Shown: positions 8,559-64,000 of the stretch, piece by piece
Layout of the letters: each line of letters opens with the position of its first letter
Numbering within the stretch: the first letter of the stretch is position 1
NCBI RefSeq assembly: GCF_008638345.1
Contig: NZ_VTVA01000002.1
Location: 310,001 to 374,000, forward strand
Length of the DNA stretch: 64,000 bases
Origin: Pseudomonas saliphila
GTDB lineage: Bacteria > Pseudomonadota > Gammaproteobacteria > Pseudomonadales > Pseudomonadaceae
Reading direction: 5' to 3'
The notes under the pieces: generated by a model
The model's input: only the letters and a program-made list of their open reading frames with translations
Databases searched by the model: none
What the model was told of the DNA's origin: nothing
Translations under genes and position numbers: made by a program

Positions 8559-9788
8559 TTAAAAATTGCCCTGGAACCACTTCTTCATGCGTCCCAACGG
8601 CGATGTTTTGCCCTGCTCCGGGCTATTGCTACCTTGCTCGTGGTGCTTGATGCCGTAGTGCAACAAGCCGACCCCGGTTGAATAAATGGGGTTACGGACC
8701 ACATCAGTCAGTCCCTTGAATTCCTGTGGTACGCCAAGGCGTACCGGCATGTGGAATATCTCTTCTGCCAATTCCACGGCGCCTTCCATTTTTGCTGTCC
8801 CGCCGGTCAGAACGATGCCCGCGGGGACCATGTCTTCGAATCCTGAGCGTCGCAGTTCAGCCTGAATCAGGGTGAACAGCTCGTCGTAGCGGGGCTCGAC
8901 CACTTCGGCCAGGGCCTGGCGAGACAGGTCCCGTGGCGGCCGCTCGCCGACACTCGGTACCTTGATGGTCTCTTCCGGGCCGGCCAGTTTGGCCAGCGCA
9001 CACGCATAGCGGATTTTGATTTCTTCTGCGTACTGCGTGGGTGTACGCAGCGCCATCGCAATATCATTGGTGACCTGATCACCGGCAATCGGGATAACCG
9101 CCGTATGCCGGATTGCACCTTCGGTGAAGATGGCGATATCCGTGGTGCCACCGCCGATGTCGACCATGCAGACGCCCAGCTCCTTCTCGTCCTCGGTGAG
9201 CACGGCGTAGCTGGAGGCGAGCTGCTCGAGGATCACGTCCTCTACTTCCAGACCGCAGCGGCGGATGCACTTCTCGATGTTCTGCACTGCATTGAGCGCG
9301 CAGGTCACCAGATGCACCTTGGCTTCCAGGCGCACGCCGGACATGCCCAGCGGCTCGCGCACGCCTTCCTGGTTGTCGATCACGTATTCCTGCGGAAGAA
9401 TGTGCAAGACCTTCTGATCCGCCGGTATCGCGACCGCCTGGCCTGCATCCAGTACGCGCTCGATGTCGGCTTTGACCACTTCCCGGTCGCGGATGGCGAC
9501 GATGCCATGCGAGTTGAGGCTGCGAATGTGATTGCCAGCCAACCCCGCAAACACCGAATGAATCTGGCAGCCCGCCATCAGCTCCGCTTCTTCTATAGCG
9601 CGCTGGATCGACTGCACGGTGGATTCGATATTGACCACCACGCCCTTTTTCAGGCCTCGGGAGGGATGAGAGCCGATACCGACGATTTCTAGTTCGCCGT
9701 CCGCGCCAATCTCACCGACAAGTGCAACCACCTTGGAGGTGCCAATATCGAGCCCGACTATCATCCTGGTACCCTGCTTGCTAGCCAT
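8559..9788 (-). CDS. ftsA: Cell division protein FtsA
   Basis: FtsA is the actin-like ATPase that ties FtsZ filaments to the inner membrane. The 409 residues start MASKQGTRMIVGLDIGTSKV, with phosphate-1 motif DIGTSK, the SHS2/1C region near 80-170, phosphate-2 motif DIGGGTTD, and a C-terminal amphipathic helix (MKKWFQGNF) for membrane binding. The ATG at 9788 was chosen by family N-terminus; nine extra upstream codons overlap ftsQ. The gap from the ftsQ stop is 10 bp, so translation is probably linked. Confidence 0.98.
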   Translation of the reverse strand: MASKQGTRMIVGLDIGTSKVVALVGEIGADGELEIVGIGSHPSRGLKKGVVVNIESTVQSIQRAIEEAELMAGCQIHSVFAGLAGNHIRSLNSHGIVAIRDREVVKADIERVLDAGQAVAIPADQKVLHILPQEYVIDNQEGVREPLGMSGVRLEAKVHLVTCALNAVQNIEKCIRRCGLEVEDVILEQLASSYAVLTEDEKELGVCMVDIGGGTTDIAIFTEGAIRHTAVIPIAGDQVTNDIAMALRTPTQYAEEIKIRYACALAKLAGPEETIKVPSVGERPPRDLSRQALAEVVEPRYDELFTLIQAELRRSGFEDMVPAGIVLTGGTAKMEGAVELAEEIFHMPVRLGVPQEFKGLTDVVRNPIYSTGVGLLHYGIKHHEQGSNSPEQGKTSPLGRMKKWFQGNF

Positions 9789-59794: not shown

Positions 59795-60952
59795 TTAACG
59801 TCCTACGGCTGGTTGTTGCGGCTCTGGCTGCGTCTGCTCGTCAGCGGCAAGCTGGCGAACCGCAATATAACGGGCACTGCGTCGCGTCTTGTCAGCCACC
59901 TGGCCGACCAACTGGCCGCAGGCTGCATCGATATCCTCGCCCCGAGTGATACGCACTGTCACGTTATAACCCGCTTTGTACAGTATGTCCTGAAACCGGC
60001 GAATCACATTGTTGCTGGGACGCTCGTAGCCCGAGTGCGGGAACGGATTAAAGGGGATCAGGTTGATCTTGCACGGGGTATCGCGCAGCAGCTCGATCAT
60101 CTGTTCGGCGTGCTCAGGCTGGTCGTTCACATCCTTGAGCAGGGTGTATTCGATGGTCAACACCCGCTTCTCGCCGAGCCGGTTCATATAGTTATTGCAT
60201 GATTCCAGCAGCATCTTCAGCGGGTACTTCTTGTTCAGCGGCACCAGCTGACTACGCAATTCATCGTTGGGCGCATGCAGCGACAACGCCAGTGCGACAT
60301 CGGTAACCGTCGCCAGCTTATCGATCATGGGCACGACGCCTGAGGTAGACAGCGTCACCTTGCGCTTGGAGATGCCGTAACCCATGTCATCCATCATCAG
60401 GGTCATCGCGTCCACCACGTTGTCGAAGTTGAGCAGAGGCTCACCCATGCCCATCATCACTACGTTGGTGATCGCCCGGTCCGCGGTGGCCGGCACGCTA
60501 CCGAAGGACTTGTTGGCGACCCACACCTGGCCAATGATTTCGGCCACGGTCAGGTCGCTGTTGAAACCCTGCTTGCCTGTCGAGCAGAAGCTGCAGTCCA
60601 GTGCACAGCCAGCCTGGGATGACACACACAGGGTGCCGCGCCCGTTCTGCGGGATGTAGACGGTCTCAACACAACTACCGGACGCCACGCGCACAACCCA
60701 CTTGCGCGTGCCGTCCTTGGAAATATCTTCGCTGACCACTTCCGGGCCGCGAATCTCGGCAATGGCCTTGAGCTTTTCGCGCAGGGCCTTGCCGACATTG
60801 GTCATTTCATCAAAGCTGTCCACACCGCAGTGATGGATCCACTTCATGATCTGACCGGCACGAAAACGCTTTTCCCCGAGCTGTTCGAAGAAGGCTTCCA
60901 TTTTCGGCTGGGTCAGACCCAGCAGATTGATTTTGCCGTTTGCATCAGTCAT
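59795..60952 (-). CDS. rlmN: Dual-specificity 23S rRNA/tRNA adenine C2-methyltransferase RlmN
   Basis: A radical-SAM enzyme that methylates A2503 of 23S rRNA and A37 of some tRNAs. The 385 residues hold the [4Fe-4S] motif Cys116-x3-Cys120-x2-Cys123 and the C-terminal methylated cysteine in DAACGQL. The start [12 protein letters not shown] at 60952 matches family practice. It is 35 bp downstream of ndk. It is the second intact Fe-S enzyme next to the reduced isc locus. Confidence 0.97.
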
Positions 60953-60987: not shown

Positions 60988-61419
60988 TCAGCGAGTGCGC
61001 GAGCACAACTCGGTTTCAGCAAAGAAATAGCCGATTTCACGCGCCGCGGAGGTAGTGGAATCAGACCCGTGTACTGCGTTGGCATCAATGGATTCAGCGA
61101 AGTCAGCACGGATAGTGCCGGCATCAGCTTCCTTCGGATTGGTGGCGCCCATCAGCTCACGATTCTTGAGTACTGCGCCTTCGCCTTCCAGAACCTGAAC
61201 AACGACAGGGCCGGAGGTCATGAAGCCGACCAGATCCTTGAAGAAAGGACGCTCTTTATGTTCAGCGTAGAAGCCTTCGGCATCGGCCTGGGACAGCTGT
61301 ACCATTTTGGCAGCGATAACGCTCAGGTTCGCCTGCTCGAAGCGGCTAATGATCTGACCAATAACATTCTTGGCAACGGCATCGGGCTTGATAATGGACA
61401 GGGTGCGTTCAACGGCCAT
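60988..61419 (-). CDS. ndk: Nucleoside diphosphate kinase Ndk
   Basis: Ndk equalises NTP pools by phosphotransfer via a phospho-histidine. The 143 residues show [10 protein letters not shown] with Lys11, and the catalytic His117 in NAVHGSDS; the C-terminus FAETELCSR is typical. It has its own promoter (61479-61508). In P. aeruginosa iscX lies directly upstream; here iscS does. Confidence 0.99.
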
Positions 61420-61478
61420 GAAACTCTCCAGATAGATGGTTTAAGGATAGAGGATTACAAAGATTTGTTAACCCGCGG

Positions 61479-61508
61479 ATTATACGCAGGTTGCACGGAA
61501 ATACGTAA
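61479..61508 (-). promoter_or_regulatory. Promoter of ndk
   Basis: Minus strand: -35 TTACGT (61503-61508), 18-bp spacer, perfect -10 TATAAT (61479-61484), about 60 bp upstream of the ndk ATG, in the 130-bp gap after iscS. Confidence 0.6.
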
Positions 61509-61549
61509 CAGCAGCGGCGGCAGACTTATCGGGAAACAAATCCCCGAAC

Positions 61550-62704
61550 CTAGCCCGCCTGACGCAGACGCCCGACCACGTCACACAGCACCTCGGCTGC
61601 GCGCCGGGCTTCCTGTTCGGTGGTGAAACGCCCCAGCGACAATCGAATGGAGCTGTGCGCCAAAGCATCCGACAGTCCGATGCCGCGCAGCACATAGGAA
61701 GGTTCCACCGTCGCTGAGGTGCAGGCGGAGCCCGTCGACAATGCCAAATCCCGCAATGACAGCAGCAGGAGCTCACCGTCGACGTCGTCGAAGGCCAGGT
61801 TCAGGTTATGCGGAATGCGCTGCTCGGCGCTGCCATTCAGATGCACACCGGACAGCCCGCTGAGCCCGCCCATTAGAACATCACGCAATGTACTGATATG
61901 CCGGTGCTCGGCGTCAAGCACCGCACCGGCGATCGCGAAGGCCTCTCCCATCCCCACAATCTGGTGGGTCGGCAAGGTGCCAGAACGCATGCCGCGCTCA
62001 TGACCACCACCATGAACGATCGCCTGGGGGCGTACATCCAGCGTGCGGCGCACATACAATGCACCCACGCCTTTGGGGCCGTAACTCTTGTGGGCACTGA
62101 AGGACATCAGATCGACGGGCAGCGCCTTGAGATTGATCGGCAGCTTGCCAGTGGACTGCGCTGCATCAACGTGGAACAGCACGCCGCGCTCGCGCGCTAC
62201 GGCGCCCAGCGTCGCAATATCATTGATGGTGCCGATCTCATTATTCACGTGCATCAGCGTGACCAGCACTGTGTCGCTGCGGATCGCTTCCTGCAGCGTC
62301 TCGACCGAGATGATCCCGTCGGCGCCGGGCTCCAGATAACTGACGTCGAAGCCTTCGCGCTCCAGCTGCTTGCAGCTGTCGAGGACTGCCTTGTGTTCGA
62401 TGCGCGAGGTGACAATGTGCCCGCCTCGGTCGCGCAATGCGCGGGCGAGGCCCTTGATGGCCAGGTTATTGGATTCAGTCGCACCGGAGGTCCAGACGAT
62501 CTCGCGGGGGTCGGCGCCGACCAGATCGGCTACCTGGCGACGCCCGAGCTCGACCGCTTCCTCGGCCTGCCAGCCATAGATATGCGAGCGCGACGCCGGG
62601 TTGGCAAAATTGCCATCCATGGTCAGACACCCCATCATCTTTTCCGCCACGCGCGGGTCAACCGGGGTAGTCGCTGCATAGTCGAGATAAATAGGTAGCT
62701 TCAT
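61550..62704 (-). CDS. iscS: Cysteine desulfurase IscS, C-terminally shortened
   Basis: This PLP enzyme takes sulfur from cysteine for Fe-S clusters and thionucleosides. The 384 residues align with E. coli IscS from the first residue ([18 protein letters not shown]): PLP Lys206 in SAHKSYGP and the mobile-loop Cys328 in STGSACTSA sit at identical positions. It ends at RLRQAG, 20 residues short, lacking the C-terminal tail (LSPLWEMYK...SIEWAHH in E. coli) that is part of the IscU-docking region. GAGG lies 6 bp before the ATG; cysE stops 7 bp upstream. iscR, iscU, iscA, hscBA, fdx and iscX are all absent here. Confidence 0.95.
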
Positions 62705-62711
62705 GGAGACC

Positions 62712-63539
62712 TCAGCGCTGCGCCTGTTGCGGAGCCGGCTCGGCTGCAACGGCTTCATCCTCGGTGGAGGCTTCCTCCTTGAGCGCCTCGAAATCCTCGT
62801 CATTGAGCGTCGGCAAATCCTTGGCACAGTAATCACTGCCCAATTCCTTGAGCGCTTCACACACCCCTTCCAGCCGACCATCGACGGCATGCATATGATC
62901 CAGCATCTGACCGATCGCCTTGGCCACAGGATCCGGCATGTCGTTGGTCACGCCGTAGGCATCAAAGCCGAGCTTTTCCGCCATGGCTTTACGCTTGGCG
63001 CAGGTCGCATCAGCCTCGCTGAGCGGCTCCTTGAGAATGATACGCCCAGGGATACCCACAGCGGTTGCTCCGGCGGGTACCGCTTTGGTCACGACAGCAT
63101 TGGAGCCGATCTTGGCGCCCGCCCCCACAATGAAGGGGCCGAGGACCTTGGCACCTGCGCCCACCACAACACCGTCTTCCAGGGTCGGGTGCCGCTTGCC
63201 CTTGTTCCAGCTGGTGCCGCCCAGCGTGACGCCCTGATAAAGGGTGACGTCGTCGCCGATTTCCGCCGTCTCACCGATAACCACACCCATGCCGTGATCG
63301 ATGAAAAACCGTCTGCCGAGCTTCGCCCCCGGATGTATTTCGATACCCGTCGCCCAGCGTGCGAAGTTGGAGACCATGCGCGCCAATAGTTGCGCGTTTC
63401 TGACCCACAATGCGTGTGCCAGGCGGTGCAGCCAGATTGCATGCAACCCCGGATAGCAGAACAGCACCTCGAGCGTATTACGGGCGGCTGGGTCCCGGTG
63501 AAACACGCTGGCGATGTCTTCCTTCATACGCTTGAACAT
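62712..63539 (-). CDS. cysE: Serine O-acetyltransferase CysE
   Basis: CysE acetylates serine for cysteine synthesis, the substrate of IscS downstream. The 275 residues have an N-terminal helical domain ([19 protein letters not shown]), a left-handed beta-helix with hexapeptide repeats ([32 protein letters not shown]) and a variable acidic, Ala-rich tail of about 80 residues. The start at 63539 is the family start; an upstream GTG-type start would overlap trmJ. It sits between trmJ and iscS, with iscR missing. Confidence 0.96.
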
Positions 63540-63543
63540 TGGC

Positions 63544-64000
63544 TTAACGTCTCCGCTCACCGGACGCCTGTACGCCGATGGCTTTCTGGGTTTCAGTCAG
63601 GATACCGCGCAATATATTCATTTCCACCTGGTTTATTTGCACTCGGCCGTACAAGCGGCGCAGGCGCGGCATCAATTGACGGGGCTTCTCCGGATCGAGA
63701 AACCCGATTTCAACCAATACCTGCTCCAGGTGCGTGAAATAGCGCTCCAGTTCTTCAGCGGTAGCCGGAATCTCGTTCTGGCGGTTGGTGGTTTCCAGTT
63801 TGTGCATTTTAGTCGGCTGGCCCTGTCGCTGCAGGTAAGCCATGCGCAGCTCATAGGCCACCACCTGCACTGCCGCGCCCAGATTCAACGAGCTGAACTC
63901 AGGATTCGACGGGATGTGCACATGAAACTGGCAGCGCTGCAACTCCTCACTGGTCAGCCCCGAGTCCTCGCGACCGAACACCAGCGCAATCTCGGCGCTG
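63544..64000 (-). CDS. trmJ: tRNA (cytidine/uridine32-2'-O)-methyltransferase TrmJ, 5' end outside the window
   Basis: TrmJ 2'-O-methylates position 32 of several tRNAs. Only the last 151 residues are present. They begin within the SPOUT knot at [14 protein letters not shown], followed by [25 protein letters not shown], which forms the SAM-binding trefoil knot, then a C-terminal helical domain. It is the upstream neighbour of cysE (gap 4 bp) and probably in one operon with cysE and iscS. Confidence 0.95.

Follow-up and report, generated by a model that had tools for sequence, protein, structure and literature searches.

A lone, trimmed iscS at the former isc site of Pseudomonas saliphila and its genus, most likely kept as a sulfur donor

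The closest described counterparts of the locus presented here are the ISC operon of Pseudomonas and E. coli (iscRSUA-hscBA-fdx-iscX) and the SUF-only state reported for Halopseudomonas and P. phragmitis among 139 Pseudomonadales genomes (Lo Sciuto 2024, PMC11559095). The latter report also describes that SUF from E. coli sustains growth of ISC-deficient P. aeruginosa (PMC11559095). For E. coli IscS, the contacts with the scaffold IscU have been assigned to E309-A316, E347, the end of helix 11, and the C-terminal helix R379-K391, and a protein without residues 376-404 fails to bind IscU (Shi 2010, PMC2854127). As to the frataxin CyaY, every genome with cyaY was found to have iscU as well (Roche 2015, PMC4440780), and the E. 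coli protein reportedly binds SufS and reduces its activity (PMC11446229).

The window, i.e. the whole stretch of 64,000 nucleotides of Pseudomonas saliphila which was analysed, contains the following features around iscS. L009 is an intact isc operon used as reference, and L309 is a locus with the intact order in a relative from the Pseudomonas family.

63544..64000, minus strand: trmJ, 3' part, cut by the window end (tblastn to L009 TrmJ: 71% identity, E=4e-64)
62712..63539, minus strand: cysE, serine O-acetyltransferase, 275 aa (TIGR01172 258.3 bits, cut-off 210.65); its stop codon lies 7 bp before iscS
61550..62704, minus strand: iscS, group I cysteine desulfurase, 384 aa, ending ...VGRLRQAG, without the C-terminal tail (E. 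coli IscS residues 385-404) (NF010611; alignment to 1p3w)
61420..61549, minus strand: iscS-ndk gap of 130 bp, the site of iscU-iscA-hscB-hscA-fdx-iscX in relatives (no remnant by tblastn; intact order in L309)
60988..61419, minus strand: ndk, nucleoside-diphosphate kinase, 143 aa, downstream flank (NF001908 214.6 bits, cut-off 155)
59795..60952, minus strand: rlmN, downstream flank, start codon not settled (tblastn 66% identity over 59849-60952, E=5e-167)

Read on the minus strand the order is thus trmJ, cysE, iscS, ndk, rlmN, which is what the original prediction had stated, and both gaps it had given, 7 bp from cysE to iscS and 130 bp from iscS to ndk, are correct. It had further claimed that no other isc gene or remnant is left, and a tblastn comparison of the window with the isc proteins of L009 agrees: iscS was the sole isc match, no remnant was detected at the locus, and hscA, hscB, fdx, and iscX were found neither there nor elsewhere in the window. 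The remaining isc proteins yielded chance-level matches outside the gaps, the best being hscA with E=0.001 at 8745-9284; iscU reached E=0.10. The window protein scores 600.1 bits with NF010611 (cut-off 548) and 588.1 bits with TIGR02006, below the cut-off of 643.2, and its residues 1-382 align to residues 1-382 of the 404 amino acids of E. coli IscS (1p3w). Identity as DndA or NifS was considered and set aside, since these models score lower and below their cut-offs.

Close relatives, which the original prediction had named as a check, show that a lone iscS between cysE and ndk is the rule across the host genus (g1, 37 genomes sampled, own genome G000). An IscS-type gene occurs in 36 of the 37, the exception being a genome of 83% completeness (G016). 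In the 35 loci, including the window, which have cysE and iscS on one contig, the two genes are spaced by -1 to 26 bp; iscS and ndk are spaced by 97 to 181 bp in 34 of them, and in the remaining locus the contig stops behind iscS. Two members of the genus have loci of about 4.1 kb identical to those of the MAGs Pseudomonas sp. CSBr16_108 (G015) and HGW-Gammaproteobacteria-11 (G031). Misassembly is unlikely because the arrangement recurs, cysE-iscS being present in 34 other genomes of the genus with ndk behind in 33. The lone iscS is hence confirmed as a real feature.

The IscU/NifU N-terminal domain (PF01592) has no match in the own genome or in any of the 37 genomes of the host genus. Of the 398 genomes sampled from the family, 360 have it, spread over 18 of 19 genera, and the 38 without it are the 37 of the host genus and one other. 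SUF core proteins have the opposite distribution, occurring in 42 of the 398: 35 of 37 genomes within the host genus, where the two without a match are 75% and 79% complete, and 7 of 361 outside. The own genome carries an iscR-sufBCDSATE operon away from iscS (L083; tblastn), and the same order was read by tblastn in all 21 suf loci of the host genus that were inspected (L083 and 20 others). Its SufB passes its models and its SufS passes TIGR01979, SufA and SufE match below equivalog cut-offs, sufC was found by tblastn, and sufD by tblastn and PF01458. The IscR at the head of the operon scores 209.0 bits with TIGR02010 (cut-off 207.55). The best score of the own-genome SufS (L083:7570-8817) was obtained with the model for family 2A encapsulin cargo cysteine desulfurases, at 641.7 bits, which exceeds the SufS models and stays below that model's own cut-off of 800.

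As SUF core genes are present, a match to IscU is absent, and the rest of isc is gone around iscS at the ancestral site, the interpretation that another iron-sulfur system took over and that iscS stayed behind when the isc genes around it were deleted is supported. The genome search proposed with it found suf genes and iscR and gave no PF01592 match for iscU, on which ground the alternative of a relocated ISC was rejected, and the claim that the regulator was lost has to be withdrawn in view of the IscR heading the suf operon.

Some information on the origin of suf can be drawn from its neighbours. The nearest SufB outside the host genus belongs to a genome of the same family (G328, 93.5%), followed by one of family f6 (G041, 91.4%); the former also has an IscU match, and the latter, from another family, has an iscR-iscS-suf operon. 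The suf-linked IscR is 78% identical to its counterpart in G328 (L308) and 77% to that in G041 (L244), compared to 64-69% with the isc-linked IscR of Pseudomonas. IscR is therefore closer to L244 than to the isc-linked protein, which suggests that iscR and suf probably arrived together and that the original isc-linked iscR disappeared along with the other isc genes. Trees of IscR, of SufB, and of the flanks were calculated with FastTree only, and 69 of 149 forks of the IscR tree are open. Two other genomes of the family, G328 (L308) and G227 (L307), have a suf operon beside an IscU match; the operon of G328 is iscR-sufBCDSATE and is the closest to that of the host genus.

The C-terminal tail of IscS was counted if 10 or more of residues 384-404 were identical to the reference IscS of L009. 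By this measure it occurs in all 114 loci with iscU and in 2 of 127 without. Since L003 and L004 duplicate L109 and L110, counts were also made by distinct sequence, giving 113 of 113 and 2 of 125, and both exceptions are doubtful: in L293 the contig stops 85 bp behind iscS, and in L292 the operon is otherwise whole. The latter locus (genome G596) has lost iscU only and retains the tail, which may be a recent loss or an assembly error. No IscS locus of the host genus reached ten identities, and the window protein stops at residue 384. Decayed, nearly full-length tails were seen in the IscU-less L079, L250, L075, L296, L304, L227, and L232, with 6 of 21 identities to the reference in L227 and 8 in L232, as expected of recent losses. 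For L053, L054, L062, L075, and L079 the absence of iscU refers to the locus and not to the genome, and contigs stop 161 bp behind iscS in L054 and 64 bp in L091.

On a flank tree built from linked Ndk, TrmJ, and RlmN (186 rows), 17 changes of state were counted for iscU, and in all 13 supported independent pairs the tail goes with it (sign test p=0.00024). On an IscS tree with the tail left out there are 5 changes of state and 4 supported pairs. L292 and L293 were left out of this comparison of tail and iscU on the two trees, and an earlier IscS tree was made without L292, L293, L302, L290, and L232. The loss of the tail from IscS in IscU-less genomes is evolutionary evidence, read from protein sequences, that the C-terminal tail serves IscU.

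Beyond the tail, the contact residues taken from the available text of Shi 2010 (PMC2854127) were compared in an alignment of 114 loci with iscU, 35 of the host genus, and 86 other IscU-less loci, with L292, L293, L302, and L290 left out. The catalytic residues H104, K206, and C328 are conserved throughout, with 35 of 35 in host-genus loci. The IscU contacts E309, S312, and M315 are found in 114 of 114 rows with iscU and in none of the 35, where E347 is retained in 15; the other IscU-less rows retain E309 in 26, S312 in 33, M315 in 38, and E347 in 30 of 86. Likewise, R223 of the patch for CyaY and IscX is present in all 114 rows with iscU and in 0 of 35 of the host genus, which keep R225 in 25 and E227 in 18. 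The TusA contacts W45, E49, R55, R220, and R237 are conserved in 35 of 35, with glutamate at position 52 in all of them, and in 82, 56, 86, 81, and 80, respectively, of the 86 other IscU-less rows. As a yardstick, the 181 positions with at least 95% conservation in rows with IscU have a mean retention of 0.89 in the host genus and of 0.84 among the remaining IscU-less loci. The IscS of the host genus has thus lost several contacts for IscU and CyaY and kept the main ones for TusA, and a TusA-family gene occurs in 37 of its 37 genomes.

The division between the two sides is not a clean one, and the following points speak against the reading preferred below. G310, E311, L313, L380, and R381 of the IscU face are intact in 35 of 35 host-genus loci, and E309D and M315L are mild substitutions. 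Conversely, L333, placed close to TusA by a figure legend, is changed to valine in the host genus, and F89, mutation of which lowered ThiI binding in what was a mild mutant, is alanine in nearly all of its IscS proteins (both assignments from the accessible parts of Shi 2010, PMC2854127); each is at least 95% conserved in rows with IscU. On this same TusA/ThiI side, M239 is leucine in 10 of 35 and R116 differs in 7 of 35. R340 is retained in just 28 of the 86 other IscU-less rows.

PF01592 is absent from 142 of 293 sampled genomes of the order. Of these, 140 lie outside the host genus, the other two being G000 and one further genome. Among 80 of the 140 which were searched for IscS, 79 gave a match, 76 of them a strong one (E<=6.4e-114), and of the 72 good genomes 71 had a strong IscS; the four without it (G813, G850, G866, and G874) are 75, 79, 87, and 93% complete. 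Eighty-four IscU-less loci outside the host genus were read, 75 from the order, where the strong gene of G822 is split over contigs and was not included, and nine from the wider class. Their layouts are iscR-iscS-ndk (26 loci), lone iscS-ndk (9), iscR-iscS or iscS with ndk out of range (6), iscR-iscS leading in line into suf (23), iscR-iscS opposite an inverted suf operon (3), iscS-iscR-suf (1), a suf operon with iscS and ndk behind it (6), iscS-iscA retained (9), and the isc operon minus iscU only (1, L292). In 73 of them trmJ or ndk is in range and iscS therefore occupies the ancestral site; neither was seen in 11. The locus of Glaciecola sp. XM2 (L079), trmJ-cysE-iscS-ndk, resembles the window. 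In Marinomonas rhizomae (L062, 3222-11719) the order is iscR-sufBCDSATE-iscS-ndk, with suf placed between iscR and iscS within what was the isc site. In contrast to related Erwiniaceae, Pantoea anthophila LMG 2558 (L053) has trmJ-iscR-iscS-ndk with a tailless IscS of 386 amino acids and lacks iscU at the locus.

A lone iscS is the rule throughout the host genus and represents one of several results of a repeated dismantling of ISC in the order, in which iscS is nearly always retained. Retention is weaker in the wider class, where 53 of 56 IscU-less genomes have some IscS match and 29 one at E<1e-60, which speaks against the reading preferred below.

The reading preferred here, with a probability of about 0.8, is that IscS was kept as a sulfur donor for TusA and other acceptors after SUF had taken over. 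An iscR-sufBCDSATE cassette would have been acquired in the ancestor of the host genus and would have assumed iron-sulfur cluster assembly on its own. At the ancestral site between cysE and ndk, the isc operon would then have been deleted with the exception of iscS, whose product may have remained needed for feeding sulfur to acceptors besides IscU, namely TusA, for s2U34 of tRNA and the molybdenum cofactor, and probably ThiI. Without IscU, the protein would have shed the IscU-docking tail and several contacts for IscU and CyaY/IscX and would have retained its catalytic site and main TusA contacts. As judged from conserved residues and gene content, the most likely role of the lone IscS is to provide sulfur for TusA-dependent tRNA thiolation and related pathways.

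This history of trimming in place has to be weighed against the horizontal spread of a tailless, SUF-associated IscS lineage which took the place of the native isc operon between trmJ and ndk. On trees calculated after removal of the tail columns, most IscU-less IscS proteins do group together, with 5, 5, and 4 changes of state, and the 5 changes on the IscS tree versus 17 on the flank tree could mean transfer of tailless IscS. Family f16 as one clade is borderline (p-AU 0.0507), and suf follows iscS in line in 23 of the 84 loci. IscU-less rows tend to have long branches, however, and long branches attract each other, so that the grouping may be due either to attraction of fast-evolving sequences or to transfer of the tailless form. 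Placing the window's family as one clade costs 2.7 log units and is not rejected (p-AU 0.474), and the proteins of Glaciecola sp. XM2, Pantoea anthophila, and G894 fall among relatives which have IscU, so that in these cases IscS was trimmed in place. Horizontal spread is considered fairly unlikely.

A somewhat less probable alternative is that IscS still aids iron-sulfur assembly as an auxiliary of SUF, giving sulfur to SufE/SufBCD or to A-type carriers. It would be in line with the lone IscS of Mycobacterium tuberculosis, which reportedly contributes alongside SUF (PMC10848736), and with iscA directly behind iscS in 9 of the 84 loci; on the other hand, the suf operon encodes its own SufS and SufE, and it is the IscU tail which was lost and the main TusA contacts which were kept. 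That iscS is a dispensable relic about to be lost can hardly be correct: about half of the 56 IscU-less genomes of the wider class do have no close IscS-type gene, yet the catalytic residues and main TusA contacts are present in 35 of 35 host-genus loci and a strong IscS in 76 of 80 searched IscU-less genomes of the order, including 71 of 72 good ones.

The host genus breaks the co-occurrence rule for cyaY and iscU of PMC4440780. CyaY (PF01491) was found in 29 of 37 of its genomes and in 26 of 33 good ones, including the own genome, where cyaY lies at G000:C57:135316-135615 (L374) and its product scores 70.3 bits with TIGR03421 (cut-off 53.25). Because E. coli CyaY is reported to bind SufS, a role on SUF is a natural guess by analogy; the alternative is a slow loss of CyaY, in line with the eight genomes of the genus without a PF01491 match. 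Whether bacterial frataxin works on SUF (PMC11446229) becomes testable here. A wider proposal, put forward tentatively and with slightly less than an even chance of being right, is that ISC was dismantled many times in the order, that IscS each time lost the IscU-docking tail and had its IscU/frataxin face eroded with the main TusA contacts kept, and that CyaY of the host genus outlived IscU, moved to SUF, and acts on SufS. If true, this would be a replicated natural experiment dividing IscS into separable modules.

The takeover by SUF itself is already known. The SUF-only Halopseudomonas of PMC11559095 is very probably the host genus, because g1 is the sole IscU-less genus among the 19 sampled in the family, and the suf gene set is the same (SufABCDSET). 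The available text of that paper makes no mention, for Halopseudomonas, of a retained lone iscS, of its trimming, of a suf-linked IscR, or of CyaY, and among titles and beginnings of abstracts in the open-licence literature no report of a lone iscS, tail loss, or cyaY without iscU was found for the group. The retained, trimmed IscS, its recurrence, and a frataxin without IscU appear to be new. They show that iscS is the part of the isc operon which these bacteria keep after a SUF takeover, and suggest a direction for the SUF-only Halopseudomonas, with ISC lost in place.

Compared to the ISC operon of Pseudomonas and E. coli, the locus has an iscS of the same family, but the protein is devoid of the IscU-docking C-terminus; in family relatives with the complete operon (L309) the same site between cysE and ndk is occupied, and the window keeps iscS alone. 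The ISC-deficient P. aeruginosa growing on E. coli SUF (PMC11559095) comes close to an engineered counterpart of the host-genus state. In Mycobacterium tuberculosis ISC is also reduced to a single cysteine desulfurase beside SUF, although the lineage is distant and its iscS, unlike that of the window, is in an operon with trmU (PMC10848736). In the isc-suf operon of Alphaproteobacteria such as Rhodobacter, to the extent described in the sources available, IscR is likewise joined to suf genes, and the iscR-iscS-suf order of many relatives found here resembles it, whereas in the host genus iscS stands alone and iscR-suf is located elsewhere.
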